A model generated the notes under the pieces. It was not told where the DNA came from, did not search any database, and saw only the letters and a program-made list of their open reading frames with translations. Position numbers and translations under genes: made by a program. Shown piece after piece: positions 22,508-63,841 of a stretch of DNA of 64,000 bases. Numbering within the stretch: the first letter of the stretch is position 1; the number at the start of each line of letters is the position of its first letter. Source of the DNA: Undaria pinnatifida (lineage: Eukaryota; Sar; Phaeophyceae; Laminariales; Alariaceae); NCBI GenBank assembly GCA_012845835.1, contig JABAKD010000027.1, positions 16,072,573-16,136,572 of the forward strand, in the 5' to 3' direction.

Positions 22508-22657
22508 TTAGCTCAAATTGAAGTTGAAGTCGACCACTGACCGCGTAACGTCTTCTCCCTCCAGCTGCTCCTCGTCCATGGCTCTCACCAGGAGACGAAG
22601 TACTTGCCCCACCTCCCTGCACGCCTTCATCCAGCGCTGTCGGTTGCTCTTTTGACT
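22508..22657 (-). CDS. ROCO gene exon 27: probable terminal exon
   Basis: 49 codons and a TAA stop. Helix RWMKACREVGQVLRLLVRAM, then an acidic stretch, ending FNFNLS. Acceptor TGTGCAG|AGT follows CATTTTT. No donor here fits the phase needed by the next exon downstream (22033-22249), which argues that this is the end of the gene. An upstream decayed copy of its 5' edge sits at about 22855-22935. Confidence 0.68.
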   Translation of the reverse strand, partial: SQKSNRQRWMKACREVGQVLRLLVRAMDEEQLEGEDVTRSVVDFNFNLS

Positions 22658-25600
22658 CTGCACAAAAATGCCGTGGGTGCAAATGATACCTCTTGCCACC
22701 TGGAGTACGTCGAAAGTATTGAGAGATGGTACAAGTTTACGACATAACACGGTGTTTTTAAGAGAAAGGTACGGCGACCACAGTGACATCCTAGACAAGT
22801 TTACGACATAACAAGGGGTTTGTTGTAGAGAAAGAGAATGGCGTGTATACGACTTGCCCGTTGCTCTTCTGGTGTTCCACAAACAAAAAACGTAGGTGAA
22901 AACGATGCCTCTCGCCAACTGGGGAACGACGAAAACAGTGTAGTCAGTCTTCATCGCGAATGCGGGAAAAAATACCAAATGTTAACACAATGTGAACACA
23001 GTCTCGCTTTCTCCGCGTGGTAGGATTCGAGGTTGGTGTTGGTGGCCTCAAACTCAAACTCGGAAACACCACGAAAGTCGAGTCTGTGGTGAAAGGAAGT
23101 GCCTGCGACGTCATGGTCTGGCCCCGGCTTCGCCCTCCCAATCAACCATGGAAACGCGAAAAAGTTGTGGGTAAATATAAGTTTACGGCATGTTGTGAGG
23201 TTGGTTTCACAGAGGGGAACGCCGGGAATAGAGAGATAGTATATACCATATTTTGCCAATGATATATGCGGTTTATTGAGAGATGCGGCGAAAACAGTTA
23301 GAGGTTATACAGGTTTACACAATACGGCGTTTGCTGTAAAACGAGGGACGGCGAAAAAAAATGGGATATTATAAAAGGTTGCGATGCAGTCGTATAGGGC
23401 TTGTTGTGAAGAGGGTTTAGGCGAAATTCGTGAGAATGTATGCAACTGTACGATACAATGTGGGGCTTTGTTGTAGGGAGAGAATCGCATGCATACAGGC
23501 CTCAAAGCTCAAAAGCGCGACCTAGCCCCTGGCAGGCAGCGCCCAAAGCAAGCAGTGTGTTGGAGGGCGAGTGCACGTTGCAGAAGCGACAACAGACTAC
23601 ACGAGCATAAGGCACTACCGTGGCTGTCAGCCTAGCACTAGCGCTGCTCTTGTTATTATTTCTGGCGGCGCCCTGACGCTGTATCCCGGAATCTCTGATA
23701 ATGTCACCGATGGGTAGCTTGGAGCGTCGACGAAGCCTGGACGAATAAGTGGGTAGCGGGAAGGGCGGCTGCAAAGCGGGACAGGCCAAACGCTGCTATC
23801 TGGGGGGGTGAGTGAACAGATACGTGCGGAGTGATCGCAAGGGGAAGGACTTTGCGCCGTTTGCCCTTGTGCCATTGCCCCTCGTGATGGTTGAGGTTGT
23901 AGTAGTAGTTTTTGTTCTTGTGCTTGTTTTTGTTTTGGTGTTTCTTTTTGTTCTTGCTGTTGTTATTGTTGACGGACTTCGTACAATCAACAACAGCACC
24001 CACCTCGTTCTTGTCGACCAGCTCGTTCGAGGCCGCCTCCGCGATCTGCTCCCCCACAAAGCAGCACCGCACCGCAACACCAGCCACCCAAGGCGAAACA
24101 GGACAGGCAGAACGCGTTTCGATCAAGACGGCGGGGCACGGGCAATTGGCATAAACGTACTAGCCGGTGCTTAACAACTATCTGAACATTCTTGGTGTTA
24201 CCGAAGCACTTGCCCCTTCTACATACCACTAAAAAAATGATTCCACGCCAATTCCAAGCAGGTTTCCCAAAAAAGTGGGTACATTTGTATGTAAAAGGGG
24301 TAACGGTCTTTCTTCATGGGTTAAAGTGTTCCTACGTTCTTTTTGTTGCCGAAATAGATTGACCAAGTACTGGATTTATTTCCAGAAGAAGAAAAAACTG
24401 AAATTATTCGTGTCGTTAGGATCGATCAGTACGAACGCACGAACCGACCCGAGTGCTGCGCGCCATGTGCGCACTCGATTGGCCCCTTAGCCAGCTCGGT
24501 TGACCTCGACGACACCGACACCGACGACTGCCGAACAAAACCCGCGCGGGAAGCAAATGCTGACACTGGGAAAAAAAAAACGGGACCTTTCTCATGCCAC
24601 TGCCGCTGCTGTCTTGGTTGACACCGCCTGCCGTCGCAGAACATGTCAGCTTTCGCAAAATGGCTGATATAAACATCCACACTAGGCCCTCCAATTTTCC
24701 CAGGCGGCATTAGTTGCGGTCAGGGGTGCGGGTTGAACGTATTTTCAGCCTTGTCATCGAAGCTTGCCCTCGAGCATGGAATGGCATCAGTGCGGTGCTC
24801 ATGTGGCCCTTGTGAGGGGTACTGGCTGACGGTGGAAATAAAAGAGACGCGACCCTTACCTCCTCCGGCAAGAGCGCCTCGCACGCCCATCGCTGCATCG
24901 AGCGAATCGCGTCTCCCGACGGGTCGGCTGTAGCTAACGCCACCAACAGCGCCGCCACCCCCGTGTCTTGTCGCCCCCTCGCCCCTCCAACAAAGCCTCC
25001 ACCGGCGGGTTTCAACCCCTCACCCCCGCCCTCGGCGACATTTCTACCAGTACCGCAATCAACAACAGGTGGTGTAGAAGGTTGCGACCCCTCCACCCCC
25101 AGCTCAGCGACCCCTCCAACAGTACCAACAGCAGCAGTAGTGTGTGCAACAGGTAATACCGTTACGTCAGGTTCTTCTTCCCCTTGTTCGAGCTTTGAGC
25201 CTTTTCTGGTCCCCTTTGCGTTTTTTTTTTTGCCGAACTTTTTTTTGCCGAAACTTTTTGTGCTCGACACTTTCTTTGCCACCTCTGGCGTCTCGCACCG
25301 CCAGGCCCACCGAGCAAGGATTTCCAAAAAAGGGAAGGCCTGTCTTGCGGCGCGCAGCCCTCCCGGGTTGTCTTTGACGCCTCGTTGTACCTGCGAAAAG
25401 TTTTTATGGTATGTGTTATTGGGACCCAGGTGCAGCGACAAAACGTACCTGTTAAGTAAGGTGTTATCGTAGCGTGAAGGTGCAGCATACGATAACGACA
25501 GCGCATGCTTCGGCCATGTCGAACAACCTTTAATAGTTGTATTGAAGACTGGCAGCAAGAGCAGCACCTTCTAAACACCGCCTAACCTATCAGCAAAACA

Positions 25601-28600
25601 GCAAAACAGCCAGCATTGCTCGGTATGACAATGACAGACGCCCCGCTCATCATTATTTTTCCCTTCTGACGTCCCAAAAGGCTTAAAGTAACCCTTAACC
25701 CCTTTAGAGCCCCGACATATTTTCCTATAACAATTTCAACTAAATTGTCCCCAAAAACGGGTTTCCAGTTGTAAAACGCGTCAAGGCTTGTATCACTGCA
25801 TTTTCCCCCACTAATTTCAAGTAATTTTTTTCCAAACGAGGGGGTACAGTTCTGAAGGAGATATAATAAGAACAGCGGGGAATGAACGTGACGAGCTGGT
25901 TGCGATAACAGAGTCTGTGTTAGAGTGGTGTATTAATGGCGCATATACATAAAAACGCATGGACTCCAGATCCCATCGCCGATTTGGAGCGGCAAAAATA
26001 ACGTTTTTCAAAATGATGTTTTCAAACAGAATGTTAAGTAAGATTAAATGGTTTCAAATAATTTTTGAAGAAAAGTGATTTTTTTTTTTTCGAAAAACAA
26101 AAAATGTTTTACAAAATAGTCTTCAAAATGGTGAAACAAAATGTTCTCTAAAACATGTTTTCCAACAACTTTTCTATAAAACGTTATCGCAACGTTCATA
26201 TACACAAGCACCAGGTGCCTGGTATGGATACATATATTCGAAGTAATACTTCAATAAAAACGCACAAGTTGATACGAAGGACTTTCGAAGTATTCCACCT
26301 TCTCGAACACCTCGACCAACGACTAACGCCCTCCTCCGGCCGAACGGCTCCCCTGTAACAGTACTATTAAACAGTACTATATTGTACTATATTGTACTAT
26401 AGAATAGAGTGCACGTTATACTCGCCGTATTTTTTTAAACAAATACTTATCGTAAAAATTGGATTTCAAAATAAAAAAAAAAAGTGCAAAACAAAATACA
26501 ATTCACCCCATTTTTTAAACGAATACCAGGTACTTAAAAACAATGTTGTATAAAAAAAAAAAAAACGTGTGAAACGAATACTATTATTAACGACAACACG
26601 CAGGCGAGTAGGTGCCTTCTCGGCACCCCACCTCCTCGAACGACCCGGCCAACGAGTAACCGCCCTCCTCCAGCCGAAGAGCTGCCCCGTGCACGTTGTC
26701 GTACACCCTTGACGCCGCGTCGTTGTGCCCGGGAGTGAACAGCCCCCTGCACAAAATCAGGACAGACTGCTCCACAAGCGAGTTGTGGGCAGCAAAAATC
26801 GAGGCAACAGAGACCCTTGGAAAACACCGAGGTTAGAATGTGAGGCAGCATGATACATTGGTGGGGCCTGTGTCGTAAGCCTTTTAGGACTGCATCCGTG
26901 CTTTTCGGGTAGGTATTGGATATTGTTGGCAGGAGTAGTTGTATTTGTTGATTATGGCATACCAGGTAGCGAACAGTGATAGGGACAAATGAAACAACTA
27001 CGAATGCGATCGTACCGAGCATCTCGGAACAGCGTGCAGCAACACTACTGTCTGCATAGCATTAATGGTACCATGCTGCGCGGGTGTCACATAGCTCCTT
27101 ACGCTGCAGGTTCGACAGGTACCCTATCCCGGTAGTACCTTATCCCTGCAGCTCAGGTTGCTTGGCGTGGGCGATATTTCTCTCGGATTTTTTTTTCGAG
27201 TTCTCAATTGAAACCCAAATTTTGAAGAAAAACGTGCGCGCAATTCGACTACCAATCCCATCGGCTAGGCCTATCGCTCGAAAACAAATGTATGATACCA
27301 TTGGGATTAGGACTGCACGAGAACAAATACCGATACGAACACAGTTATAACACCACACTTCAATTGCAAGATCCAGACAAAAGGGGGGGATATATGTTAT
27401 GGTATCCCCGTTTCCTCATCTATATATTTTTGGAGGCGTTGTTATTATAATCTGCGCTGAGGGGCACCCCTCTGCTGCCAGGGATCCAATTTTCAGGACG
27501 GAAAATAAGTGCGTTCAGTCGCGTCGATAGCAGCAATAACACTAGTAGGGTCCGTCGTATACTGCCCTCTTAGTTATCCAGGCGCTGCGGGAGTAATACC
27601 CAATCATACACTCAAAACAAAACAAAAAACGAACAAAGTTTGTTCATTACCTGGTATATTATTTAGTATATTATTCCAAACTCGTAACGCACCAGTTTTT
27701 TTTCACTCCGTCAGGGTCAGAGTTGCGTCGTTTTCGGTGTTTCTTCGTGTGCCCCTGACGGCACCGCAAAGACCACAGTGGCCAGTTATTTCAGTTCAAG
27801 AACCCAGTAAGCCAGAAAATGTTGGGCCCGTTACCGTACCGTAGCATGACTCGAAAACTTTCGACGCATGAGACCTTCACTTACCTGGTGCCGATCGCGC
27901 GCCGGAGCGTGCTCCAAAAGCGCTTTCAAGTGGAACACGAAGTCCCTCTTAGTCTCGGGGGGAGCACTCGCTTCCAACAGCCTGGCGGCGGACCAGACCA
28001 GACTACACTCCGCAAGGCACCGCTCGACCCCCGTGACCACCAGCTGTTGGCCATGGTTCGTGTCGTACTTAGGGCACACACCGTCGGCCACCTGCCATCA
28101 TTGTATACATCATTGTATGCATCATTGTACGCGGCAGCCACACAACAACAGCTTAATCACATGTAATGGAGGCGGATGGCATAATGTCACTATATGGAGA
28201 AAAGATAATTCCTACTTTACACGGCCGCCTATCTATTGTGTAGGGGGGCCTTTTGAGCTGGGTGAATCCGTAGAGACGCGGAAGCCCACCCGTGACGATT
28301 CTTGCGAGCGACTCCTAGGCGAACATAAGGACCAATGGCCCAGACCAAACCGATGAACCCAACGTATTAATACTGCAAAACGCAGCAGTGCTGTAAACAT
28401 ATAAAAACATCCTTGCGCACTGTAGAATGTAGCACACGCAATCGAACTACCAAGTTACAAAGTTCACCGGAACGAACTGGTCGAACTCAACGCTTGTGTG
28501 TATAAATATATACTTCCAATTAAAAAGTGGAATATGAAAATCAGCCTCAACGGGAGGTATTTGCAAAAAGCGATCGAAAAGCCCTTGATTTAAACACTAA

Positions 28601-46600: not shown

Positions 46601-48284
46601 TTTCCCAAGTGTCGGTTCAAGACCAATCATAATAATTGGTCGGTATTGTTCCGGGCTCTCCCCTGTAATAAACGCCAAGAAAAATCACCTAAACTTCCCG
46701 ACGACTTTTTGCAAGTATCTGTTCGTCATGACCAACGTCGACAGAACGTACACACCAAACGGCGAACAAGTCGCCGCCTCTAACAGGCCACAAAGATTAT
46801 ACGTACAGGCCCTTGACTGGTCTGTTTTGTCCACAGCTCCCCCCCCTATAAGAAACGCCGGAAAAATCACCTGAACTCCCCGTCGACTTTTTCCAAGCTT
46901 CTGTTCGTGAAGACCAGCGTCGACAGCAGCTTCACAGAGGGATACACCGGTTCCGGGGCGAATACGAGCGGTGGCCGGCAAAGCTGCACGAACAACGGGT
47001 ACTCCTTGGCTGCCAGCGCCGCCGTTGCTTCCTCGAAGGTCAGCAGCTGGAAAAAGAAAATGAAAACGCGAAAAACGCAGGAACAGGCTCAATCAGCGTC
47101 CATACCTCATAACCGTAAACACCTCCCCACCCCTGCTCATACGCTCGACCCAACTCAACCCCTACCCTCTGCCCTTTCCCTTCTCCTCGCCCTGGGGACA
47201 CCTCAGTGTTCTCGAACTGGTCCCTCGACACCGAAGCAACCACGCCGCGAACCCTCGATTCTAGCTCTCAATTCAATATTTACCCTTTGCCCATACCATC
47301 AACCCTAGCCCCATCCTCCGCCATTTCCCTTAATGCTACCCTCACCTTAACCCTTGATCTTACCCTTACCCATACCAGCCCACTCTCGCTTTTACTCTCA
47401 GCCCAACCCCTACCCGTTACCCTGACGCGTTCTACGACCGAGGTATACCACTTTTTGCCAAATGCTTTCTGAATGACTTGGCTCCATAATCCGAAATCTT
47501 CGGAATGTCATTCTTGTTTAGCAATTTTAATATTTTGTATGCCTAGGCTGTATGGGTTTGCTCGTGGAGTTGCACCTTTAGTTTACTCAAGAAAACTTCA
47601 TGGGTGAGGAATGATAGGCTGTAGAGTAGAGCAGATACGTACAGTTCCTCAAGTGGTCAATAAATCTCATGAAAAATACCGTGCACCTTTATCGTGCCAT
47701 GTGTCCCCCACCCCCACCGCTAAGCCTACCCCTACCCTTTGCCTTTACCCCTACCGATACCCCTACCGCCACCCTCTGGCCTTGCGCTTCTCACCCTGGG
47801 AGACACCTCGGTCGCCTCGAACGGTTCCCTCGATACCGAGGCAACCACACAACCCACCACGGCCAGCGTCTCGCTCGACCCCAGGGAGTTGAAGTCCGCG
47901 ACCACGTCTTCGTCAAAAACCCCCTCCACCACCGCCGGACGCTCGGACGCTAACTTATTTCCACCGCCACCTTGGGCGGGTTTTTTGCCGTCGGTAGTGG
48001 CGATTTCGTTCGTCGGGCTACTCGATAATGCGGCGGAATCTTTGCCCGTTGGTCGTTGGGCGGTGTCGGGAGATTCGCTTGGCCAAAACGCCTCCGTTTG
48101 TGTGTGGTACCCGCTATCTGGGGTATCGCTTCTGCCGCTACCGTCAACACCATCCACCGACCAAAAAACAAAAAACAGCAAAGTAGACAGACAGACAGAC
48201 AGACAGACAGACGGACGGACAGACAGCAAGGCCGACAGACAGACGGACAGACAGACAGACAGACAGGCAAACAGGCAGACAGGC

Positions 48285-48323
<39 letters not shown>

Positions 48324-48334
48324 AAAACAGACAG

Positions 48335-48409
<75 letters not shown>

Positions 48410-57400: not shown

Positions 57401-60400
57401 CCGTAGAGAAATGGGATACTGATGTAACGAAGCCCCCCCCCCAAAGGGGGTGCCAATGGTTTGAAGAAGCCTCAGCCTTTATTGAGGTAGAGAAACGGGA
57501 TATTGATGTAGCGAAATTACACAGCAGCAGGGGTCATTCGTTTTGAACAACTCTCAACCTGTGTTGGTTACGCTAACGAAGTCTTCACCAACTCCACTAC
57601 AAACACAGCAACAATTTCACTGTACACGGACCCCAAACGGGGTTCATTCGTTTGAGTAAGCCTTAGCCTCTCCTGCAGCGAAACGTTAAACCAACGAAAT
57701 TACACAGCGGCAGTGCCAACTACATACTGCCCCGTACCGTGGGGTAGAGTCTGGCCCGTTTCATGTTTTCGTACCAGGCGACAAAAGGAGCGTATTCTAC
57801 CACGTGTTATAACAAAAAACTACATTCCTTACCAGTACTTGGCCCCATACTTAGCAGTATGTGATCAGCTCCGTATTCATTAGGTATTGCATTAGGTATT
57901 ACATTATTAGGTATTGCGTTAGGTATTGCATTAGGTGTTGCTAGCTTTCCCGTCAAATCCGGGGGGTGCCGCAAGGTCAAGAGCGCGGAAAAACCCTTGA
58001 AAGCCAAGAAACAAAACTAGCCACCGCGCCGGGACCACGCAAGCAAGTTACCCGGCAATTAGCACCGACCAGCCCTGACGAGGTAAAGGCTGTATTTGAC
58101 TTGTTGTCACAACCCGCCGCTGCTGCCGCTGCTGCTGCTGCCGCTGCTGCTGCTGCCGCTGAATTGTATGCGGAGTGTGTGGTGTGTCGCAAGGGAGTTG
58201 AAAATCTCGTCGCATTACTCAACCAATGAGCCGTCTGCTTTTTTTACTTGAAAGATACGACACATAACAGTAGTCAGCCGCATTCTATTCGTTTCCAGTA
58301 CTTGACCCATTTTTTACCAGTTAGCCTTTTACCGGTATTTGAACCCTTTCTTACCAGTACTTAATCTGCTTCTTCTGCTCCCGCTTGTCCTCCGTCATGC
58401 TGACGACAACCACGTACACCGACGTGGGGCACGCCAAGCCACCATCCAGCGCCCCCAGCCCCCTAAATCGCGACAAGCCTCCATAATCTTGGACCAAGAC
58501 CGGCGCCGATCCGGCACCCAGCGGCAGAACCGACGTGACGACCCCCAGTGTCCGCGCGGAAGGGTCGTCCGCGCCCTTGTCTTGAGCGTTTTCTATGCTT
58601 GTCTGCGAGTGAAAGACATACAACCAGCGGTGATCATCGGACATGCAGTAGGCGACACGACCCAATTGGGCCCGGTTCAAGTTCTTGTGGGAAGCAGGGT
58701 GTGTCTGACACTATTTGCAGTATACCAAAAACGATCTTCTTATGTTTCGTGCAAACTCGAGACAGGTTGTCGAGACAGGTTGTTTAACTCAAAAATTCTC
58801 AAGTGACGTCACGTACTGTACGTATGGAAGGTGCGGACACGTATGCCAAAGAGTACAAGGGCACCTTAGGTGCGAGATCGAGGATTTTCGTCGAACCTCG
58901 TTTTTGCAAGCTGCGTGTGACAAAATACGCCGATCGCGCGTGCTTCGGGGCTTGCGTCTCGGACTCGGGGAACTTCCAGCACACAAGCAACAGCTTAAAT
59001 ATGATCAAATCACCAAAGCACTCCATCATTCGCTCTCGCCGCGAAGCCGCTGACACGCATGATGACATGATAGCCAACAAGACGGACCTGGCCGCCGAAG
59101 AATTGTCGGAGTCGGCGCATCAAACGACAGCTCTGACCAACGGAATTGCCACCAGCACCAGACGTAATGTCACCACACAGCAAGCACATTAGGGATGAAA
59201 TAGCAACCACGGTAGGCACACCAGCAAGCAGAGCAAGCATAACAGCAAGCAAGACAAAGCAAAACAAGCAGAGCAAAGGACGGCAAAGGACAGCAACGCA
59301 CAGCGCAGCGCAGCAAGCAGCGCAAAGGACGGCAAAGGACAGCAAAGCACAGCAAAGAACAGGGAGCAAAAGACGTTGAGCGGTCGTCAGGATACCGGAC
59401 GCCTGTCAGTCCTCTTCGTCCCGCTAAAACCACCGCCCACGGTGTGGTGCCGCTTTCGCACAACAGCACGCCTGCGCTACGCTACCGTGCCGCCTGTCCC
59501 CCCTCCCCAACCGGCTCGCCAACACGCGATGCCATAGACGACGCTTGTTACCAACATCGGCACAAAAAAAAAGTTGCCGATAACATCGGTGACGTTGAAG
59601 AAAAGCCACCCATGGTATAGATGGCATCGGTTTGACAACGATGATTTTAATAACCAACGATCAGAGAATCAAAAACGAAGACAACGATTACTACAGTACC
59701 ACCAGTATCTTATTACCATCGACAACGCTCAGAGTGCAACACTGTAATACTGTCGTTACTAATACCAAGGACAGATCATGATCTAGATTATCTACCATAA
59801 CCTAGATAATCTACAGTAGATCAATTGTCGCTGCCGTTCAAAGATGTTATCAAGCATCTGTATGTAGAGTACAGATTCACCCCTGGAAACTTTTTGCTAG
59901 ATCACACAGATCGCGCGACTCCCACCCGGTATCGTGAGCCAGACAATACAGATCCCCCCTGAAGTATCTAGATCACCAGCGGGGATCGGTCATGTGTCCG
60001 AAGCGGTGTAACCGTCAGCAAACCTACCAATGAGGCGTACCCACGTTGAACAATGCGGAGGAATACTCCCCCTCTCCCAAGCCCCAATGCCAATGGTATT
60101 GTTTCGAATTCCGAAGCGATCTGTAACCATCATTCCACCCGCCAATCAGCCAACTAGGCTAAGTATATATGCATACGAAGTATGTATATTACTATTATCC
60201 CAAAGCGACGTGTAACCGCCATCCCGCCGCCAATCAGCCAATCAGGCTCGCTTGCGTCGAAAAACCGGGAGAAGCCACCCCTCCCCACGGTTTCCTCGAG
60301 CATTCTTCTCTACTGTTCCGAAACGATCCGTAACTGTGATCCCGGCCGGCACTCAGGCTCCTTCGCGTTGAGTAATGTGGAGAGTTCCCCCCTCCCCAAA

Positions 60401-63400
60401 TCCCCAATGCTAACAATACTATTCCGAGTTCTGAATCGATCTGTACCCATCATCCCACCCGCCATTCAGCCAAAAAATGCTCGCTAAAGAACGCTAGCAA
60501 GCAGCGAACACTACCATATACATATTTATATTACTATTCCAAAGCCAAGTGTAACCGTCATCCCGCCGCCAATCACCCTGTCAGGTCCGTTCGCGTTGAA
60601 TAATGCGGAGAAACAACCCCATCGTATGGTTTCCTTGAAAGTGCTACTTTACGGCTCCAAAGCGATTCGAAACTCTCATCCCACCGGCCAATCAGGCTCA
60701 CTCAGGTCGAAAACGCCGACAAAATAAGCCCCCCCTCTCCCGTACGAATAATGTTCCGGATTATGAAGCGATCTGTAACCGTCACCCCACGGGCCAATCA
60801 GACCCACTCACGTTGAACAACGCGGAGAAATACCTCCTTTTCCCGTACGAATAATGGCTTTCCGAATTCTGAAGCGATCTGTAACCGTCACCCCACCCGC
60901 CCAATCAGCCAACCAGCCTCACTCACGTTGAATAACGCGGAGAAATAACCCCTCCCCATGGTTTCCTTCAGAGTGCTCTTCCCCACACCGGCGTCTCCGA
61001 GTAGGTGCACCGTAGTGCGACGAGTCTCTACGGGCAAGGACATAATCCCGCGAGCCAACTCCGAGGCAAGTGAGAGCTGAACGGAAACAGCGTCATAGTG
61101 TCATATCGCGGGTTTGACAGGGAGGGAGGGAGGAGGAGCGGGGGGGGTCGGAGTAGAGAAGGAGGGGGAAAGGGACAACACCCGATCGTTGGGTATGAAC
61201 GTGATGTTGTGGAATTTTTACGGAGGGAGGGGTGGGGGGCAGTAGAGACAGAGGTGGAGATAGAGATGGATACAAAGAACAAGATGTCGAGAGAGGAGAA
61301 GAGAGAAAAACGGAGAGAACGGGAGTGAGCAGAGGGAGGGAGGGAGGGAGGGAGGGAGTGAGGGAGGGAGGGAGGGAGGGAGGAAGGGAGGGAGGGAGCG
61401 AAGAGCTGGCGAATACTGAACGACTGAGTGCGGTCGAGGTCGAGGTGGTGCATACTATCGAAGCGAGATAATGTGCGTGAGCGAATGTTTATAGAAAGAA
61501 GTATTCGCTAGACGAACACTAACCGCGTATCGCGAGGTAGTACAGGGCAGCGGCTTCGGTACTCTAGCCCCAACCCCAGATATCATAACAACAATAACAG
61601 CAGCGGCAGCAGCACCAACGACAACGACAACGACGACGACAATAACAAAAACAACAACAACAGCAGCAGCAGCAGCAGCAGCATATTGTTGCATGTGACG
61701 CCGTCCAGTGCAACTGCAGCGAGCCTTCAGCTCATTTTACTTAACAGGTTACACAAACCGCAACTGCCCATTTGCGAAACCGCAACGATAGCCTATTCCC
61801 CTTTGCCCCAGACGTGACGAGAAACACAGCCAGCAAGTACTCTCAACTCGGCCCTATCACACTGCCCTTGAGCGCGGCTCCACAAAACAGAGCACTCCTA
61901 TACCTGGTACACCAAATAGATGTGTCTACGCAAAAACTGTACCAGGTATTTTGTAGCGCTTTTCGCCGCTCGTGACCCTACCCTTGTTACAGTACCTCGC
62001 GGGTCGAGTCGGGTCGTGTCTGGAGGTATTGAAAATCTCACGGGTTGAGTCGGGTTGGGTCAGAGGATTTTCAAATATCACCGGTCGGGCCGGGTCGGAT
62101 CTGATCTGATCTGATCTGATCGGATCGGATCGGGTCATCCTGCGCGAGAATACCACAAGTCGGGAATACCACCGGTCAGACACTATTACACCGGTGTGAC
62201 TATTTCTGCAGTTTGGGTTTTAAGGTTTAGGGCTTTCGATGTTATATTGGCATGGGGTTTCAACGTTAGTGTCAGCGTTTTTATGTACCCGCCCCGACCC
62301 GCAAACCAACACACCGCGGGAAAAAAATAAAACCAACTTGCGAAGTAGAGCGCCTGGCCTGTTATTGTCTCCTACATACTCGTGTGTCTACAAAACGTAG
62401 CTTGCGAAGGGAAGCATCATACCACTTAATCGATCGGATTCACGGCTGACGTGCTTCTAATAACATTACAAAATAACTGCTCTCGCATCTGTGAGAGGCT
62501 TGTCTTTTTCAAGATAGCCTCTCCTATCTGTTTACAAAAAAAGCTATGCTCGTACCATCCATGCGAGAGGCTTGCCATTTTCAATTTATCATCCGCCTAT
62601 CATATTACACAACAGTTACGCTCGTATCACAAGAGAGGCTTGCCTTCTTCAAGGTCTCTTCCCCAAGCGCGTTGCCCTCGCTAGCATCCACCTCTAACCC
62701 CGGCTTCTCTCCCAGCATGCGCAGCAGCAGCAACCCGGCGCGCTCCCCCAGACCGCACCGATTCAGGGAAATACTCTGAACGGTCCTGCTCCTGAGCACC
62801 GCCTGGCACAGGTACGCCAGACCTTCCTCATCAATAGGGTTGCCATCCAAGATCACCCGCAGCAGCCAGTCGTGGGAGGAGATGATACCGGCCACGAGAC
62901 AAACGTCTGCTGTTGACGGTAGCTGCGCCACGCAACGGAGGAGGAAGGGGGGGTGCTATCATCAGGCATATGATGGAGGAGGAGGGGGGGGGGCAGGTGC
63001 GGGGCATCACCAGACCCATAGTGGAGGTGGGAGGGGAAGAGGGATGGTGAATCGCCGGGATTTTAGTGGAGGGGGGCAAACGAGCAACGCACGGGGGGGG
63101 GGGGGGGGGGCAAACATTTACGTGGACGGTAGCTGCGCGACGAAATAGAGGGGGAGGGGGAGGAGGAGGGGGGGGGGGGTCAGAGAAAGAGAGGGGGTGG
63201 GGCGGGGCATCACCATGTGTATGATGGCGTATGAAGGCGATGGCCAAACGCTAGGGCTGGGAGTTGGCTGACAAATAGTCGCCGACTAGGTTTTACAGTT
63301 AGCTGCGCAACGCAACAGAGGACGAACAGGAGAGGGAGGAGGAGGGCCCGGGGTATCCAGGAGTACGACGCCGAGGGCCAGACGAACAGCGAGGGGTGGG

Positions 63401-63841
63401 GGCGGTGCTCGTGCGAAGTTCGAATAACGCCTTTCAACGTATAGCGTCACAACTCCCTCACGTTTTGAGGGAAAACGCTTGGAAAGACGAAGCGTTGATT
63501 TTATCTTGGGAAAACGCTTAGGAATGCGTAAACCCTGACCCTAACCCTAACCCTAACCCTACCCCTAACCCCAAGTTGAGGGAAGTTTGAATAGGACAAT
63601 TCTTGCAGCACATAACTATTTGGGGGGGGAAACATGGCACCATGTCTCTTTGATCTCCTTACTCAGCAAAACACGTAACACATAAACCGGGAAGAAAAAC
63701 ACAATACACATAAGCCTACCTGGCAGGGCACCGTGCCCTTCGGTCTGACCAGCTTGAGCTCCTTTTGACCCTTCGAAATTGTCCACAGGTCTATCGACAG
63801 TCCCTGTATCCGCGACCCCTCCCCGGCCATCAGAGCCTTGC
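22508..63841 (-). CDS. LRR-ROC-COR (ROCO) GTPase fused to DUF900-like alpha/beta hydrolase and ARM-like tail; gene-level join of 27 exons, 5' partial
   Basis: Gene-level entry; the exons are listed separately. The join codes for about 2,173 residues in the window. In order: LRR about 41-133, ROC about 134-374 (P-loop GDAGVGKS at 160-167, DYGG at 249-252, G4-like GSRAD at 312-316), COR about 375-882, disordered linker 883-1373, alpha/beta hydrolase about 1374-1691 (HGFN at 1500-1503, GHSMG with nucleophile Ser at 1592), helical ARM-like region 1692-2173. ROCO proteins are large GTPases in which ROC binds GTP and COR mediates dimerisation; that part is family knowledge. Hydrolase regulation by the GTPase is inference. 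All 26 exon junctions agree in phase, which is strong internal support for one transcript. The first visible exon starts inside a codon, so more exons lie past 64000. Intron sizes run from a few hundred bases to about 5 kb. A split into two genes cannot be excluded without RNA. Confidence 0.8.
22680..23490. repeat. Decayed tandem array behind last ROCO exon
   Basis: Imperfect units share AAGTTTACGACATAACA.GG.GTTTGTTGTAGAGA and drifted forms (TTTACGGCATGTTGTGAGG; TTTACACAATACGGCGTTTGC). One unit (22855-22935) also copies the acceptor edge of the terminal exon. Confidence 0.6.
23500..24000. other. ROCO intron 26
   Basis: About 23895-23965 is T/G-rich (TTTTTGTTCTTG types). No exon beyond the 24004-24048 one seen. 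Confidence 0.4.
24004..24048 (-). CDS. ROCO gene exon 26: 45-nt exon
   Basis: Fifteen codons (QIAEAASNELVDKNE) in phase 0. Acceptor GGGGAG|CAG at the first AG after a long pyrimidine-rich tract, donor AACGAG|GTGGGT. It continues the helical character of the neighbours. Small, so support is mainly from splice sites and phase. Confidence 0.55.
24860..25390 (-). CDS. ROCO gene exon 25: ARM-like segment with low-complexity insertion
   Basis: 177 codons, phase 0 at both ends. Starts RGVKDNPGGLRAARQAFPFL, then a Lys-rich tract (repeated FGKKK), then Val/Gly-rich low complexity, and ends VAALLVALATADPSGDA, MQRWACEALLPEE. The last part looks like an ARM repeat (..L...rWAceAL). Acceptor TTCGCAG|GTA, donor GAGGAG|GTAAGG, both strong. 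The basic tract could act as a nuclear signal; this is speculative. Confidence 0.82.
25400..26600. other. ROCO intron 24
   Basis: Holds one short 'CTAATT.CAAGTAAT' dispersed element (25808-25857), AT-rich sequence, and the decayed copy of exon 24's 3' half at 26297-26357. No further exon seen. Confidence 0.5.
26632..26769 (-). CDS. ROCO gene exon 24: ARM/HEAT-like helices
   Basis: Codes for 46 residues (SVLILCRGLFTPG, then RVYDNVHGAALRLEEGGYSL). The 5' end is uncertain: acceptor GTGGAG|CAG keeps phase 0, and GCAG|TCT three bases later also works. The open frame extends further upstream. The chosen donor is GAGGAG|GTGGGG. A decayed direct copy of the 3' half, donor included, lies at 26297-26357. 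Confidence 0.7.
26825..27880. other. ROCO intron 23
   Basis: AT-rich with TACCAGGTA at 26960 and TACCTGGTA at 27648. No exon or gene seen. Confidence 0.4.
27885..28043 (-). CDS. ROCO gene exon 23: ARM/HEAT-like helices
   Basis: Codes for 53 residues, phase 0 at both ends. Helix pairs VERCLAECSLVWSAARLLEA and DFVFHLKALLEHAP resemble armadillo/HEAT repeats. Acceptor CCAACAG|CTG (CCTAAG|TAC, 24 nt earlier, is an in-frame alternative). Donor CACCAG|GTAAGT is near perfect. Confidence 0.8.
28050..28945. other. ROCO intron 22
   Basis: Three CATTGTATG-like units at 28098-28130, and about 28715-28860 resembles the end of the 9.2-kb SINE copy. No gene. Confidence 0.4.
28951..29164 (-). CDS. ROCO gene exon 22: ARM/HEAT-like helices
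   Basis: Codes for 71 residues after one base completing Arg. Paired helices VSLAKCVLPFEEH and MQHAAALLLVGRLSERCK look like a helical solenoid repeat. A second part (DLFSCLKYSTKKNGVARAAA) could be another repeat. Acceptor TTCTCAG|G, donor GCGGAC|GTGAGT. Confidence 0.8.
29300..29515. repeat. GGGTC foldback element, copy 2
   Basis: Same layout as at 15.1 kb: GGTCGGGTCTGGAGCC, CTCGCGGGTCGAGTCG, then GACCCTGACCCGACTCGAT and a CCCGTGAAAAGCCCTG end. Confidence 0.75.
29520..30515. other. ROCO intron 21
   Basis: Contains a dispersed repeat fragment (29555-29620) and a short dispersed element on the minus strand (29915-29960). No gene seen. Confidence 0.4.
30522..30694 (-). CDS. ROCO gene exon 21: charged helical segment
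   Basis: Codes for 57 residues plus two bases. Strongly helical and charged: TKLDATLAPVEEKVEEKRAR, then MFDQLEEELT. Acceptor ATTCCAG|CTC, donor GACCAG|GTACTA. A (CTG)n repeat on the coding strand lies inside the acceptor's upstream tract. Confidence 0.75.
30703..30740. repeat. (GCA)n at exon 21 acceptor
   Basis: About ten GCA/GCG triplets directly upstream (transcript sense) of the acceptor, reading CTGCTGCTG on the coding strand. Confidence 0.8.
31500..31826 (-). mobile_element. tRNA-derived SINE, full copy
   Basis: Head at the right (GGTCGCCCCGGTGGCGTATC on minus), box B GTTCGGATCCC slightly changed, tail toward 31500. Telomere-like CCTAACC units adjoin at 31830-31862. In ROCO intron 20. 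Confidence 0.8.
31830..32720. other. ROCO intron 20, remainder
   Basis: CTG-rich stretch at 31915-31970, otherwise nothing recognised. Confidence 0.4.
32733..32772 (-). CDS. ROCO gene exon 20: 40-nt micro-exon
   Basis: Thirteen codons (DDVILVQAFCDFR) after one base completing Arg. Acceptor CACCAG|G after the tract GCTTTCTTGTG, donor CCGA|GTGAGC. Found because the neighbours require an exon that enters with one base and leaves in phase 0. Small but phase-perfect; wants transcript support. Confidence 0.55.
33585..33830. repeat. (GGCAA)n pentanucleotide array
   Basis: About 240 bp of AAGGC/AGGCA units with GGGTA and GCGAG variants. Long open frames in all frames are repeat artefacts. In ROCO intron 19. 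Confidence 0.9.
33850..35720. other. ROCO intron 19, middle
   Basis: Contains inverted-repeat family copy d (34262-34335). A minus-strand open stretch at 34924-35163 (SRLGDTVERYHSGQKYMDLM) looks protein-like but has no partner and is left unassigned. Confidence 0.4.
36247..36596. repeat. Inverted repeat, two 135-bp arms with 80-bp loop
   Basis: The left arm (36247-36381) begins ACTAGTCCACAGCGGCC and the right arm (36462-36596) is its near-perfect reverse complement ending GGCCGCTGTGGACTAGT. A few mismatches occur. It would form a long hairpin and abuts the NADAR fragment. Confidence 0.85.
36597..36866 (+). pseudogene. NADAR (YbiA-like) domain fragment, frameshifted
   Basis: Plus-strand reading gives SGFDQECWERHRYDIVL in one frame, and from about 36742 in a second frame NFCKFSQNPDLPRAL, ATGEKHIAEASPYDLIWGIG. 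The KFSQN..L, ATG..h..EASPyD.IWGIGyR pattern is diagnostic of NADAR domains, which act on ADP-ribose-related or riboflavin-pathway N-glycosides. The frame break by a small indel and the missing N-terminal half indicate a dead copy. It lies within intron 19 of the ROCO gene, on the opposite strand, directly after the right arm of an inverted repeat. Confidence 0.75.
36971..37116. repeat. 73-bp tandem duplication
   Basis: Two copies (36971-37043 and 37044-37116) differing by a single G/A. Contains ACCGCAAATTAGTCGCGGTT, itself a small palindrome. Confidence 0.9.
37160..37850. repeat. Three imperfect tandem units of about 270 bp next to exon 19
   Basis: Each unit has TTGACGAGC.GC, a G run, GTTTCTTGCCTT or similar, GACCATT, CGAGACGGAGCA, CTCCTAATA, GGCG(C/T)T. 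The first includes a run of about 24 G (37196-37219). The array stops just short of the exon 19 donor. Confidence 0.65.
37868..38031 (-). CDS. ROCO gene exon 19: hydrolase acid strand
   Basis: Codes for 54 residues plus two bases. VSVCHYFNPGDNAIQAS matches the 'vt.Y....D.al..s' segment whose Asp is the likely catalytic acid (gene-level residue 1653). The usual late GHS(Y/F) histidine motif is not seen; AHP at about 1677-1679 is the only nearby candidate, so catalytic competence is uncertain. Acceptor AACAG|CTG, donor CGCAG|GTGGGT. Confidence 0.83.
38040..39220. other. ROCO intron 18
   Basis: CACAGTACACACAGTACA tandem at 38296-38322. No exon seen. Confidence 0.4.
39226..39423 (-). CDS. ROCO gene exon 18: hydrolase nucleophile elbow
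   Basis: Codes for 66 residues, phase 0 at both ends. GHSMG is the nucleophile elbow (catalytic Ser, gene-level residue 1592), followed by the helix CYLLLNVVDRL and the strand SVILDAPDVPTWFF, typical of DUF900 hydrolases (v.l.aPDv). Acceptor TATTGAG|GCG, donor GCAAAG|GTGCGC. A 1.3-kb purine-rich tandem region begins at the acceptor and supplies its pyrimidine tract on the coding strand. Confidence 0.9.
39424..40760. repeat. Purine-rich tandem region starting at exon 18 acceptor
   Basis: Repeated blocks of about 120 bp: GGGAACGGGG, AGAGA.GTGGAGGGATGGAGA, GGGACGAGGGATG, AAGTGGATAAAAAG. On the coding strand it is polypyrimidine and feeds the acceptor. Includes a G run at 39487-39503 and a 180-bp dispersed repeat (39600-39790) related in inverse to 51750-51965. 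Confidence 0.65.
41023..41905. repeat. Two related blocks (41050-41290, 41690-41900)
   Basis: Both share GAGTCGACGAG, GCGATAAAAATGAAGG (one short of an A in the first), ATACCGTAGTGGGG and a GAGTTACG/GAGTCACTACG end. In ROCO intron 17. A telomere-like CCCTAACCCTAACCCTA is at 41603-41620. Confidence 0.55.
42228..42425. repeat. GGGTC foldback element, copy 3
   Basis: GTCCGGTCAGAAGGGTTTC, three GGGTCGGGTC blocks, then CACCCTGACTCGATCCGACC and CCCGTCAAAAAACGCCCTG. Confidence 0.75.
42426..43840. other. ROCO intron 17, right part
   Basis: (CTACTACTG)n tract at 42875-42985, ATACTATAGGGT repeats at 42770-42820, CACAGCACAG repeats at 43370-43410. No exon other than 43848-43922. Confidence 0.5.
43848..43922 (-). 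CDS. ROCO gene exon 17: hydrolase helix (75 nt)
   Basis: Small exon of 25 codons in phase 0, too short to stand out as an open frame. Acceptor TTGGCAG|GTG, donor CTGCAG|GTGATA. STYERRYTYCEHNMHATIF fits the helix between the WPS strand and the nucleophile elbow of DUF900 hydrolases, where a D/Y.E.a..S...l.. pattern is usual. Its addition gives the expected spacing to GHSMG. Confidence 0.82.
44246..44495. repeat. 125-bp tandem duplication
   Basis: Copies 44246-44370 and 44371-44495 are almost identical (one A/T change and a small gap). Each ends in the first part of the SINE head, so the duplication happened after SINE insertion. Confidence 0.85.
44336..44769 (+). mobile_element. tRNA-derived SINE inserted beside exon 16 donor
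   Basis: Head GGTCGCCCCGGTGGCGTATC at 44342 and again (after duplication) at 44467, box B GTTCGGATCCC. The A tail ends at 44768, about 11 bp from the exon 16 edge. Orientation opposite to the gene. Confidence 0.8.
44781..44969 (-). CDS. ROCO gene exon 16: hydrolase oxyanion-hole strand
   Basis: Codes for 63 residues, phase 0 at both ends. RDVFVFVHGFNTPFGFGV is the DUF900 hydrolase strand with the HG(F/Y)N oxyanion motif, and LTVCLAWPSNPPGEGAGWL matches its next strand (v.fsWPS.g...gyl). Acceptor CACCAG|GCG, donor AAGCGG|GTAAGC. A SINE poly(A) tail ends about 11 bp past the donor. Confidence 0.88.
45020..45230. repeat. (ATC/ATCACC)n microsatellite
   Basis: CATCATCATC, ATGATCATGATC and ATCACCATCACC tracts fill ROCO intron 15. 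Confidence 0.85.
45301..45451 (-). CDS. ROCO gene exon 15: hydrolase N-terminal strands
   Basis: Codes for 50 residues after one base completing Arg. The stretch NVGELGTAMELSIPDYHVVG matches the 'G.a.VsIP..h..G' strand that opens DUF900-type alpha/beta hydrolases. Acceptor GGGCAG|G, donor CAAGAG|GTAAGC, phase 0 out. Confidence 0.82.
45460..46560. other. ROCO intron 14
   Basis: Short dispersed element on the minus strand (45525-45576) and (AAC)n-tailed dispersed repeat copy 3 (46310-46455). No gene. Confidence 0.5.
46572..46870 (-). repeat. Tandem copies of exon 14 donor edge
   Basis: Three successive versions of CGCC.AAAAATCACCT.AAC, then CGTCGACTTTTTCCAAG, CTGTTCGT.A.GACCA; the last runs into the real exon at 46871. 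Confidence 0.8.
46871..47046 (-). CDS. ROCO gene exon 14: lead-in to hydrolase domain
   Basis: Codes for 58 residues plus two bases. It has a helix LLTFEEATAALAAKEYPLF, then strands around PLVFAPEPVYP and LLSTLVFTNRSL. Acceptor TTCCAG|CTG after a strong pyrimidine tract, donor TTCAG|GTGATT. The donor edge is present in two further degenerate copies downstream. Probably the first strands of the alpha/beta fold. Confidence 0.8.
47100..47790. repeat. ROCO intron 13 with CCCTACC repeats and exon-edge copy
   Basis: A copy of the exon 13 donor edge (CCCTGGGGACACCTC, GGTCCCTCGACACCGA.GCAACCAC) at about 47180-47255, then (CCCTNACC)n sequence to 47440. No gene. Confidence 0.65.
47795..48137 (-). CDS. 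ROCO gene exon 13: acidic/Ser-rich linker
   Basis: Codes for 114 residues. Low-complexity Ser/Thr/Pro start, then a more ordered piece (VVEGVFDEDVVADFNSLGSS, then AVVGCVVASVSREPFEATEV). Acceptor GGTAG|CGG (GGCAG six bases on is an equal alternative), donor CCCAGG|GTGAGA. The exon's 3' edge and donor have a decayed copy at about 47180-47255. A CAGA tetranucleotide array begins just behind the acceptor. Confidence 0.75.
48186..48481. repeat. (CAGA)n tetranucleotide array
   Basis: Almost 300 bp of GACA units with CGGA and GGCA variants, in ROCO intron 12. It yields very long open frames (CLSV repeats) which are not genes. Confidence 0.95.
48490..49030. other. ROCO intron 12, remainder
   Basis: AT-rich with a TACCAGGTA at 48653 and a C run at 49020. 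Nothing else. Confidence 0.45.
49038..50056 (-). CDS. ROCO gene exon 12: disordered linker with NPF motifs and poly-Gly
   Basis: A single open exon of 339 codons plus two bases. It opens with an acidic/Ser-rich stretch (SDLLWDGPEEFDLDDAGR). Three NPF motifs follow (NPFAPGF, NPFAV, NPFAP; gene-level residues about 996, 1030, 1045), with poly-Pro after the third and then long Gly/Ser tracts. NPF is the known ligand of EH domains in endocytic adaptors; use here is inference. The C-terminal part (FTFDGSVFRDAGRLFGAHV ... YTFGKQRVEVAL) looks folded but unrecognised. Acceptor TTACCAG|G, donor GACAG|GTGGGG. Trinucleotide repeats in the exon predict length polymorphism. Confidence 0.78.
50341..50451 (-). 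CDS. ROCO gene exon 11: post-COR helical segment
   Basis: Codes for 37 residues, phase 0 at both ends. Acceptor TGTCAG|GCC, donor AAGACG|GTAGAT. The segment is amphipathic (SVEDMVIAAASLKDG, then LALPLATIIQKT) and probably helical, with no domain recognised. Assignment rests on phase and splice sites between COR and the linker exon. Confidence 0.7.
50690..51260. repeat. (CAAGGTCTAGA)n minisatellite
   Basis: Units of CAAGGTCTAGA, perfect near 51130-51245 and degenerate before, each carrying the palindrome TCTAGA. In ROCO intron 10. Confidence 0.9.
51265..52320. other. ROCO intron 10, right part
   Basis: TCATCGAATCGTCAT-type repeats (51530-51720) and a 180-bp dispersed repeat (51750-51965, minus) shared with 39.6 kb. 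No exon. Confidence 0.45.
52323..52542 (-). CDS. ROCO gene exon 10: COR domain end
   Basis: Codes for 73 residues after one base completing Lys. The pattern YQGGVRLHDNFIGISL, then GWVGASSAIEVAVEFVE fits the COR C-terminal sheet (w..G..l ... i.v.v.g). Acceptor ACGCAG|G, donor CGGAAG|GTATTA, phase 0 out. Confidence 0.8.
52560..52810. repeat. Degenerate (AATC)n tract
   Basis: AATCAATCAATCGATCGATCGATCG and relatives fill ROCO intron 9. Confidence 0.75.
52819..53676 (-). CDS. ROCO gene exon 9: COR domain with long low-complexity insertion
   Basis: Codes for 285 residues plus split codons at both ends. The first part (LDPETLVQALLDANICAELPP) and the last part (KLVFPALLQKL ... GRRVACRSPMLLPGLFHMVQ) match the COR pieces 'l..ll...dicfel' and 'fPalL ... 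f.flPpglf.rl'. Between them are roughly 170 residues of Gly/Ala, acidic and Ser-rich sequence absent from typical COR domains. Acceptor CCGCAG|A, donor AACAA|GTGAGA. The insertion is encoded by (CAC)n, (CCA)n and (CTC)n type repeats and probably forms a disordered loop. Confidence 0.85.
53690..54235. repeat. ROCO intron 8; donor-containing tandem repeat at its 5' end
   Basis: From 54160 to 54245 four units of about 35 bp (CATCCCCACTCACCCAATCA on plus) each repeat the exon 8 donor. The rest is AT-rich. Confidence 0.75.
54236..54525 (-). CDS. ROCO gene exon 8: COR domain, first half
   Basis: Codes for 96 residues plus two bases. After an N-terminal helix, VVVKGL..GWVLVNPELFRHNVMGGIL matches the COR segment that usually reads vi.dPqwl...v..il. 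The tail after GLEGS is Gly/Glu/Ser-rich and likely a loop. Acceptor TTACAG|TTG, donor ATTGG|GTGAGTG. The donor sits in the first unit of a short tandem repeat, so several near-identical donors follow. A decayed copy of the exon's 5' edge is at about 54998-55045. Confidence 0.85.
54530..55330. other. ROCO intron 7
   Basis: Holds an (ATCATACAG)-like tract (54695-54760), a 60-bp block shared with 59.9 kb (54855-54915), a decayed copy of the exon 8 acceptor edge (54998-55045) and inverted-repeat family copy e (55090-55165). Confidence 0.55.
55336..55491 (-). CDS. ROCO gene exon 7: ROC-COR linker and COR start
   Basis: Codes for 52 residues, phase 0 at both ends. Acceptor TTCAG|GCC, donor CAGCAG|GTAAGA. 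The pattern WRVPPLHISAALRIERWV followed by W(A)NF fits the first helices of COR, where a W.vP..w..ll.rle segment is followed by a short hydrophobic stretch. It follows the ROC domain directly, as the family requires. Confidence 0.85.
55698..55814 (-). CDS. ROCO gene exon 6: end of ROC domain
   Basis: Codes for 39 residues, phase 0 at both ends. Acceptor CTGCAG|GAC, donor AAGGAG|GTACGA. The pattern GCLAMDCRKANDTNVGRLKE looks like the last ROC strand, the G5-like stretch and the following helix, where other ROCO proteins have a hydrophobic strand, a basic or polar loop and a helix leading into COR. Confidence 0.87.
55815..56800. other. ROCO intron 5, left part
   Basis: AT-rich. Around 56450-56700 is a palindromic block (GGAATCGT, TTTTCGCG and inverted GCGAAAAATTCC forms). 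No gene. Confidence 0.4.
56805..57113 (-). mobile_element. tRNA-derived SINE, best full copy
   Basis: Minus strand: head CGGTCGCCCCGGTGGCGTAT, box B GTTCGAGCCCC, body, and an A tail (T run 56801-56818). About 300 bp with no coding capacity; a non-autonomous pol III retroposon. It sits about 50 bp inside ROCO intron 5. Confidence 0.85.
57162..57288 (-). CDS. ROCO gene exon 5: ROC GTPase, G4-like motif
   Basis: Begins with one base completing Trp, giving KYW-LRLIQANDPS across the junction. The strand VLLLVGSRADYLGS has the G4 position (usually TKxD, NKxD or THxD) as GSRAD; the aspartate is kept. Acceptor TCGCAG|G, donor GCGAG|GTGCGT, phase 0 out. The acceptor and about the first 50 bases are tandemly repeated upstream at 57.3-57.7 kb. 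A tRNA-derived SINE lies about 50 bp past the donor. Confidence 0.88.
57300..57690 (-). repeat. Tandem copies of exon 5 acceptor edge
   Basis: Four degenerate units of about 90-100 bp share GACCCC.AA..GGGGT(T)CATTCG.TT, then AAGCCTCAGCCT and GTAGAGAAA.GGGATA.TGATGTA. The first part equals the beginning of exon 5. Confidence 0.8.
57700..58350. other. ROCO intron 4
   Basis: ATTAGGTATTGC units (57880-57935), (GCT)n at 58115-58160, and copies of the exon 4 donor edge (TTACCAGTACTT) at 57832 and 58296. No exon. Confidence 0.5.
58355..58683 (-). CDS. ROCO gene exon 4: ROC GTPase core
   Basis: Codes for 109 residues plus two bases. The segment VLVQDYGGLSRFRGL carries the G3/Walker B motif (DxGG), followed by the strand VYVVVVSM and the helix EDKREQKKQIKYW. 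The order strand, charged helix, YW matches ROC domains. Acceptor ACAAG|AACTTG, donor ACTG|GTAAGA. The tryptophan codon is split across the intron and restored by the first base of exon 5. Copies of the donor sequence lie in the next intron. Confidence 0.9.
58700..60015. other. ROCO intron 3, left part
   Basis: Inverted-repeat family copy f (58858-58945), GCAAAGGACAGC repeats (59270-59365) and a block shared with 54.9 kb (59900-59965). A plus-strand 129-codon frame here is judged non-coding. Confidence 0.45.
60020..60926 (-). repeat. Tandem array of exon 3 donor edge, about 115-bp unit
   Basis: At least six units each carry ACGTTGAA(C/T)AA(C/T)GCGGAGAA, CCCCTCCCC, TCCGAA..(C/T)TGAAGCGATCTGTAACCGTCA and CCGCC.AATCAGCCA. 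The exon 3 end is the last unit. Confidence 0.85.
60927..61076 (-). CDS. ROCO gene exon 3: ROC GTPase P-loop
   Basis: Codes for 50 residues with the Walker A/P-loop GDAGVGKS preceded by a hydrophobic beta strand (TVHLL) and followed by STLKETM, as in Ras-of-complex (ROC) domains. The acceptor is TTCAG|CTC and the donor is the consensus AAC|GTGAGT; phase is 0 at both ends. The GKS lysine and serine needed for nucleotide phosphate and magnesium binding are intact. The exon's 3' edge and donor are repeated many times downstream, at 60.0-60.9 kb. Confidence 0.9.
61080..62470. other. ROCO intron 2
   Basis: (GGGA)n at 61335-61400, (CAA/GCA)n at 61580-61690, foldback copy 4 (61985-62185, diverged) and inverted-repeat family copy g (62385-62460). 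No exon. Confidence 0.5.
62478..62660 (-). repeat. Three copies of exon 2 donor edge
   Basis: GTGAGAGGCTTGTCTTTTTC, GCGAGAGGCTTGCCATTTTC and AAGAGAGGCTTGCCTTCTTC at about 62490, 62563 and 62631. The last is the true exon edge with its GC donor. Confidence 0.75.
62644..62922 (-). CDS. ROCO gene exon 2: leucine-rich repeats (RI type)
   Basis: Codes for 93 residues with about three leucine-rich repeats of the ribonuclease-inhibitor/NLR kind: LLRVILDGNPIDEEG, then VQSISLNRCGLGERAG, then LEVDASEGNALGEE. The asparagine/cysteine ladder and the G..G spacing are clear. The acceptor is GCGCAG|CTACC. The best donor in frame is a GC donor, AAG|GCAAGC, which keeps phase 0 into the P-loop exon. Reading past it meets a stop after 15 codons. 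LRRs in this family sense ligands or partners. Both edges of this exon are partly repeated in the flanking introns. Confidence 0.85.
62923..63320. repeat. G-rich repeats with exon 2 acceptor edge
   Basis: (G/T)TAGCTGCGC(C/G/A)ACG.AA..GAGG recurs at about 62919, 63128 and 63299, separated by GGGCATCACCA, TATGATGG and long G runs. The first is the real acceptor. Confidence 0.7.
63536..63575. repeat. Interstitial telomere-like repeat
   Basis: CCCTAACCCTAACCCTAACC with variant units. Similar short tracts occur at 3236-3275, 31830-31862 and 41603-41620. Internal, not a chromosome end. Confidence 0.8.
63720..63841 (-). CDS. ROCO gene exon 1 in window (N-terminal region)
   Basis: Acceptor CTGCAG|GC, donor CCAG|GTAGGC. 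It takes two bases from an upstream exon outside the window and leaves in phase 0. It codes for 40 residues including GLSIDLWTISKGQKELKL, with no clear domain of its own. It precedes the LRR exon, so it is probably a cap or leader of the leucine-rich region. An intronic (GCT/GCA)-rich stretch follows its acceptor. Confidence 0.65.

Follow-up and report, generated by a model that had tools for sequence, protein, structure and literature searches.

The window analysed here is a stretch of 64,000 nucleotides (G000:C34:16072573-16136572) from an assembly of 511 Mb in 68 contigs; positions are given in window coordinates, and those above 64000 fall in the flanking sequence (locus L010). Two genes probably lie on its minus strand, namely gene A (at least 67.7 kb to approximately 37.8 kb), a likely group 4 ROCO gene with a putative LRR-Roc-COR-DUF900 architecture, and a separate gene B. 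The curated model of gene A comprises 22 minus-strand exons (6023 nt, 2007 codons), is stop-free, has GT...AG borders at every intron, and encodes, in this order, ribonuclease-inhibitor (RI)-type LRRs, a GTPase of the Ras-like type, COR-like sequence, and an alpha/beta hydrolase of the DUF900 family. A first-pass annotation of this DNA had placed a single gene at 22508-63841, in which an ARM-like tail followed the hydrolase. The P-loop, DxGG, HGFN, and GHSMG motifs that it named are indeed located in minus-strand open exons with GT/AG borders within the stop-free chain, and our data support its joining of LRRs, Ras-like GTPase, COR-like region, and DUF900 in a single reading chain; the published group 4 has LRRs, ROC, and a C-terminal DUF900 within one gene. 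The extent that it gave has to be revised, as gene A starts outside the window and its hydrolase part stops near 37.87 kb with exon 22, the last exon found. In all likelihood gene A is real, and its LRR-GTPase-DUF900 core is well supported.

Exons 1, 2, and 3 (67176-67661, 66385-66711, and 64323-64626), which encode RI-type LRRs, lie beyond the window and were recovered by extending it, whereas exons 4-22 run from 63841 to 37868. The gene finder also reported a further LRR-like exon at 73125-73183, suggesting that gene A starts still further upstream. Exon 4 (63720-63841) is a linker in the LRR region, and exon 5 (62620-62922) encodes another RI-type LRR (LDGNPIDEEGLAYL), with 62909 as the singly picked 5' border and a GC donor near 62644 as an alternative 3' border; both exons come from the gene finder and were kept in the curated model, as were exons 7, 8, 9, 11, 13, and 14. 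LRR sequence is contained in single exons of 304-486 nt, and the joined LRR exons matched PF13516 (LRR_6) in Pfam at 69.1 bits. We take repeats such as LEKNRIGSAGAHLLADALRGN to be of the RI type, and PF13516 and SM00368 presumably describe the same type of LRR.

The Ras-like G domain is spread over exons 6-9. Exon 6 (60927-61076, from the curated model, with an uncertain 5' border for which 61027 is the alternative) carries the P-loop GDAGVGKST (G1), exon 7 (58355-58602) the switch region with DYGG (G3), which could be aligned with Rab5, exon 8 (57126-57288) the G4-like motif VGSRAD, which aligns with the VGNKKD region of Rab5, and exon 9 (55698-55814) the G5-like end. An array of approximately 110-nt repeat units (60007-60977, minus strand) extends from the 3' half of exon 6 into the intron, so that partial copies of the exon 6 end and its donor occur downstream. 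When the joined G-motif exons were compared with PDB, the Rab5 match had an E value of 1.2e-4 for the whole sequence and 0.0092 for the best stretch; with E values of up to 10 allowed, the G-domain piece matched eight chains from Rab, REM2, and Ypt7 proteins, seven of them more weakly than Rab5, and no Roco protein was among them. The Pfam Roc model (PF08477) scored 14.5-17.2 bits, below its cut-off of 27. The G4 motif of Roc domains often departs from NKxD, and that of gene A is VGSRAD, not NKxD. A Roc-type domain, rather than one of the Rab or another type, is tentatively favoured only by the LRRs in front of it and the DUF900 domain behind it.

The COR-like stretch begins in exon 10 (55336-55458, alternative 5' border 55491; VPPLHISAALRIERWVKEG..VRWANF) and continues through exon 11 (54236-54525; LAREGRVVVKG..GWVLVNPELF), exon 12 (52819-53676), which contains a low-complexity insert (RRKLVFPALLQKL) and is open throughout but was split by the gene finder, and the COR-B-like exon 13 (52323-52542). 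No Pfam COR family matched this stretch, no Roco structure in PDB matched the COR piece, and a whole-genome search with PF16095 (COR-A) gave no match at E up to 0.01; the putative COR label for exons 10-13 was assigned by position and by eye. A COR profile match was reported for just 18 of 111 brown algal ROCO proteins (PMC11378527). Of the Pfam domains expected by the first-pass annotation, LRR and DUF900 were recovered, whereas Roc stayed below the cut-off and neither COR nor ARM was matched. A Roc-COR query against the same genome gave 10 matches, all inside the window, and no second Roc-COR copy was found in this exon-wise search, from which divergent copies could escape; no match was found among plasmid records. 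Raw reading frames from 49-64 kb had also been tried as queries and were set aside, two of them giving sub-threshold RsgA only in Pfam and a third nothing useful in PDB.

Between the COR-like stretch and the hydrolase, the model contains the linker exons 14 (50335-50451), 15 (49038-50056), and 16 (47795-48017), which were placed by gene-finder signal. Exon 15 is long and of low complexity, and its acceptor was read by eye and fitted to phase (the gene finder and the single-border picks gave 49452); the borders of exon 16 were likewise fitted to phase (47736-48131 was otherwise picked). A long simple-repeat tract at 48147-48482 reads as LSVCLSVC in all three minus frames of this linker region. 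In addition, the 3' end of exon 16 is partly echoed at the protein level (VVASVSRDQFENTEVSPG versus VVASVSREPFEATEVSPR) at 47166-47253 on the minus strand, and this echo was not detected as a DNA repeat of at least 30 nt.

The DUF900-type hydrolase occupies exons 17-22. Exon 17 (46871-47046; STLVFTNRSLEK) contains its start, where the best 25 plasmid matches begin from residue 1 or 3 of the query; exon 18 (45301-45451; ELSIPDYHVVG) belongs to its N-terminal part and is covered by plasmid matches and the alignment; exon 19 (44781-44969) carries VFVHGFN and AWPS and is covered by the PF05990 match and the alignment; exon 20 (43848-43922; YERRYTYCEHN) comes from the gene finder and falls in a weakly aligned, gapped stretch; exon 21 (39226-39423) holds the nucleophile elbow GHSMG together with DAPDV and reached 26.9 bits for DUF900 alone; and exon 22 (37868-38031), placed by plasmid matches and the alignment, bears the putative acid (NPGDNAIQAS). 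PF05990 (DUF900) matched at 56-57 bits against a Pfam cut-off of 20.5. A 275-residue join of exons 17-22, with its start set at STLVFTNR, was used as a tblastn query of plasmid records, of which 314 out of 72,556 matched at E up to 1, mostly from Rhizobium (154) and Sinorhizobium (74), with 183 covering at least 80% of the query. Among the best 25 of these 314 matches, 22 had 25-27% identity over 99-100% of the query, with E values from 2e-7 to 5e-4; the other three covered 89%, including the one with the lowest E value (4e-10). Since these rhizobial hydrolases are collinear with the join, exons 17-22 are supported as one domain. In a four-sequence alignment with the rhizobial proteins WP_246718379.1, WP_275027978.1, and WP_051336655.1, which are collinear with exons 17-22, the GHSMG serine and the NPGDNA aspartate are invariant, and these residues are the candidate catalytic nucleophile and acid. 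An exon-wise search of the same genome for DUF900 gave one match, the exon 21 site, although divergent copies could escape such a search. No hydrolase relatives were confirmed in viral and prokaryote contig collections with single-sequence queries, which find close relatives only, and the NCBIfam search gave nothing above cut-off. The single match of the hydrolase in PDB, an antibody, was judged to be due to chance and discarded.

The codon model of the gene finder was seeded on the visible motif exons of the window and retrained on eleven other loci of the same genome (L013-L023) plus the ROCO region; the splice matrices were retrained in one run and generic in the remaining runs. Considering that these eleven loci were picked by Roc-model matches and that Rab-like readings occur among those printed (two of the four Roc-model loci with printed frames, L002, L004, L006, and L007, are clearly Rab-like), they should be regarded as general training genes and not as ROCO paralogs. 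The gene finder traced one minus-strand exon chain across the ROCO region. The borders of exons 5, 6, 15, and 16 in the curated model were picked to fit phase, same-phase alternatives exist for the 5' border of exon 10 and the donor of exon 5, and small or low-complexity gene-finder exons (e.g., 51812-51871, 51414-51470, 49482-49632, and 47166-47253) were omitted. Across 37.5-64.0 kb the chain scored 219, whereas none of 20 random sequences with the same first-order composition exceeded 3.3. Taken by itself this score lacks specificity, as these exons formed part of the training data of the codon model and the plus strand of the ROCO part reaches 157 as well. When the acceptor and donor of each exon were picked singly, 24 of 29 successive junctions agreed in phase, against a mean of 13.9 in shuffled orders, and 24 agreements were reached in 1 of 100,000 exon-order shuffles. 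The junctions that failed were those between exons 4 and 5, 5 and 6, 14 and 15, and 16 and 17, plus one within the tail; taken alone, the ROCO part had 14 of 18 junctions in phase (p 0.0004) and the tail 9 of 10 (p 0.026). These statistics lean towards the model, as the exon cores were selected after a phase-constrained run. Thus, the earlier statement that every splice phase matches holds for the 24 junctions with singly picked borders, whereas full matching is partly a matter of choice at exons 5, 6, 15, and 16.

The exons that had been read as an ARM-like tail form a unit that runs past 22508 down to 13836 on the minus strand. The first exon of gene B reaches from 30522 to a candidate ATG (30913 or 30937), which came out of a search for start exons, and is followed on the same strand by exons with approximate borders at 28951-29214, 27885-28091, 26627-26766, 25295-25393, 24860-25043, 22542-22771, 22033-22249, 21263-21373, 19466-19603, 17906-18027, 16571-16747, and 14195-14380, and by the last exon with the stop at 13836-14012. 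The chain score of 13.5-31.0 kb was 121, compared with 0 in random sequences. Used as a query of the genome, the tail produced 21 matches with E values no higher than 1, of which 11 were the window itself, nine formed a collinear series on another contig (G000:C27:15015050-15027295) with 45-71% identity, including one at E 0.12 and one with an internal stop, and one was a fragment on C29. Protein-level comparison with this C27 copy backs up the individual tail exons and contributes two more, at 17905-18078 and 16571-16747. The best-kept part of gene B (FRMGEDTRSCMGI...GNVRLVG...RMEARAVLRLLLRSD) is 62-75% identical between copies, and searches of Pfam, PDB, and plasmid records with it returned nothing significant. 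The C-terminal domain of the tail likewise had no match in PDB or among plasmids. The joined tail matched no Pfam family at E up to 1, including no ARM or HEAT profile, and in PDB it matched just two HU-beta chains (E 0.72-0.97), which is not convincing. A fragment similar to the first exon of gene B, with one internal stop, is present at G000:C29:553634-553798 and is possibly a relic. Upstream of the C27 copy, one exon matched DUF952 below threshold (19.0 bits against a cut-off of 23.7).

One may ask whether a single gene instead runs throughout, with the exons at 30.9-13.8 kb encoding a C-terminal helical tail of the ROCO protein. Gene A and the tail exons do share a strand, exon 22 joins the first tail exon in phase (2 to 2) at acceptor 30782 with borders picked singly, a terminal exon for gene A could not be located in the gap, and the gene finder with retrained matrices crossed it without an intergenic state by way of six weak exons (37325-37382, 36524-36739, 36240-36402, 36110-36229, 32733-32782, and 31380-31384). 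However, the exons at 36524-36739 and 36240-36402 sit in or across inverted and dispersed repeats, the chain score of the gap (31.1-37.8 kb) with generic splice matrices was 0.0 on the minus strand and 17.0 on the plus strand, and the dispersed repeat that the gap carries has at least 112 genome matches with 40 of 1235 candidates scored, representing dozens of copies. Furthermore, acceptor 30694 (TTCCAG), which scores 3.7 versus 3.9 for 30782, is out of phase, a direct fusion would truncate DUF900 ahead of its histidine-bearing end, and DUF900 is C-terminal in the published group 4 (PMC11378527). When start exons were sought within 38.0-30.7 kb, the first exon of gene B itself came out best. 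The tail copy on C27 is collinear, and exon-wise searches of the genome detected neither another DUF900 nor another Roc-COR; within 30 kb around this copy and within 20 kb of C29 sequence, 18 of the 22 ROCO exons had no overlapping match at E<0.05, and the matches of the other four were weak, namely exon 13 (E 0.009, on the opposite strand, and 0.028), exon 15 (0.033), exon 21 (0.011), and exon 16 (0.0006 and 0.025, both of simple-repeat reading). Considering the collinear C27 copy and the near-empty gap, it is unlikely that the tail is part of gene A; no ARM profile was matched, and the ARM-like tail of the first-pass annotation is not supported as part of this gene. We therefore prefer the two-gene reading: gene B, at approximately 30.9-13.84 kb, most likely stands next to gene A as an independent gene, and a copy of it exists at another place in the genome. 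As to the gap itself, an inverted repeat with 139-nt arms was observed beside the dispersed repeat at 36247-36596 and 36544-36870, and another gene-finder exon, 36221-36402, was rejected because it overlaps an arm of this repeat amid dispersed repeat DNA.

Within gene A, the LRR-GTPase part and the hydrolase could conceivably be two genes in tandem that were joined merely by eye, considering that the 5.3 kb between exons 13 and 17 hold just exons 14-16, which have no homology support and one of which is the long low-complexity exon 15, and that with singly picked borders only 4 of 6 junctions from exon 13 to exon 19 fit, no better than in shuffled orders (p 0.23). Such a split appears highly unlikely, since ROC and DUF900 occur within one gene in the published group 4 ROCO proteins (PMC11378527), no DUF900 was found elsewhere in the genome by the exon-wise search, and a phase-fitting path from exon 13 to exon 19 exists in the curated model. 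A different question is posed by the end of the hydrolase. The bacterial relatives continue past the position of exon 22 with a strand and then a GHDRY or HHGKF stretch, which presumably carries the catalytic histidine. A profile of three bacterial C-terminal sequences gave a best E value of 4.3 on the minus strand of 30-39 kb, and no convincing in-phase terminal exon was found after exon 22, so the domain might be catalytically dead, lacking the histidine, and serve as a binding or scaffold module. We consider this rather unlikely, as the serine and acid motifs have been retained and the missing histidine exon may be short or divergent.

The architecture, which the first-pass annotation had believed to be undescribed, was already published in 2024. 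Teng et al. identified 111 ROCO genes in four brown algae, in which ROCO group 4 consists of three members with SM00368 LRRs and a C-terminal DUF900 that cluster with a diatom sequence likewise bearing DUF900 (PMC11378527). In a full-text search of one literature library, DUF900 occurred together with ROCO in this paper only. Compared by the published description, gene A shares RI-type LRRs, a Ras-like G domain, and a C-terminal DUF900 with group 4, and it is likely to be a member of this group. The account of group 4 in the ROCO-identification section of that paper mentions the architecture briefly, twice, and contains no analysis of catalytic residues or mechanism; the present locus adds the exon layout (PMC11378527). 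Brown algal LRR-ROCO groups 1 and 2 resemble gene A in having LRRs before ROC-COR and many exons. In Ectocarpus ROCO genes, the LRRs are, with a single exception, encoded one by one in separate exons of 72 nt (Zambounis et al. 2012, as cited in PMC4104024), whereas RI-type LRRs of gene A are held in exons of several hundred nucleotides, far longer than such shuffled exons. The function of the DUF900 family is unknown (PMC11878206), and Plasmodium is among the eukaryotes for which DUF900 hydrolases have been listed (PMC9464883); at this locus lies the one DUF900 site found in the 511-Mb genome. Rhizobial DUF900 genes have 361-421 codons, whereas the hydrolase of gene A follows a GTPase in the same chain, and its C-terminal end could not be located.

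ROCO proteins are related to the Parkinson's kinase LRRK2, and in LRRK2 and other Roco kinases the LRR-Roc-COR core is located ahead of an enzyme domain, which is a kinase in these proteins but a hydrolase in gene A. The domain order, the GHSMG serine motif, the aligned acid PGDNA, and the Ras-like G motifs are directly visible in the exons. For Roc and COR identity, switching, catalysis, and substrate, we infer the following scheme. The N-terminal RI-type LRRs of the gene A product would sense a ligand or partner, and Roc and COR might work together as a dimer switch driven by nucleotides, like those of other ROCO proteins, for which a cycle between monomer and dimer has been proposed (PMC6337361). 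Engagement of the LRRs could then shift the Roc-COR cycle and in this way control access to the hydrolase, with the switch exposing or blocking the C-terminal alpha/beta hydrolase domain, whose substrate may be an ester or lipid-like compound. It is a tentative suggestion that the LRR sensor drives a Roc-COR switch turning the DUF900 serine hydrolase on and off, giving an ester or lipid output and not phosphorylation. In brown algae, ROCO proteins are regarded as candidates for immune receptors (PMC11378527), and a ROCO protein with a non-kinase output enzyme would allow one to ask if the Roc-COR switch controls any fused enzyme. The locus also corrects a tempting but probably wrong extension of a ROCO gene into its neighbour, gene B. 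Beyond the two genes, copies of a dispersed repeat were observed at about 1-180, 1130-1360, and 7.9-8.4 kb of the window, reading as DRRFRRNSSLQAVCDTPIARIT in one frame, and also in the C27 and C29 stretches.
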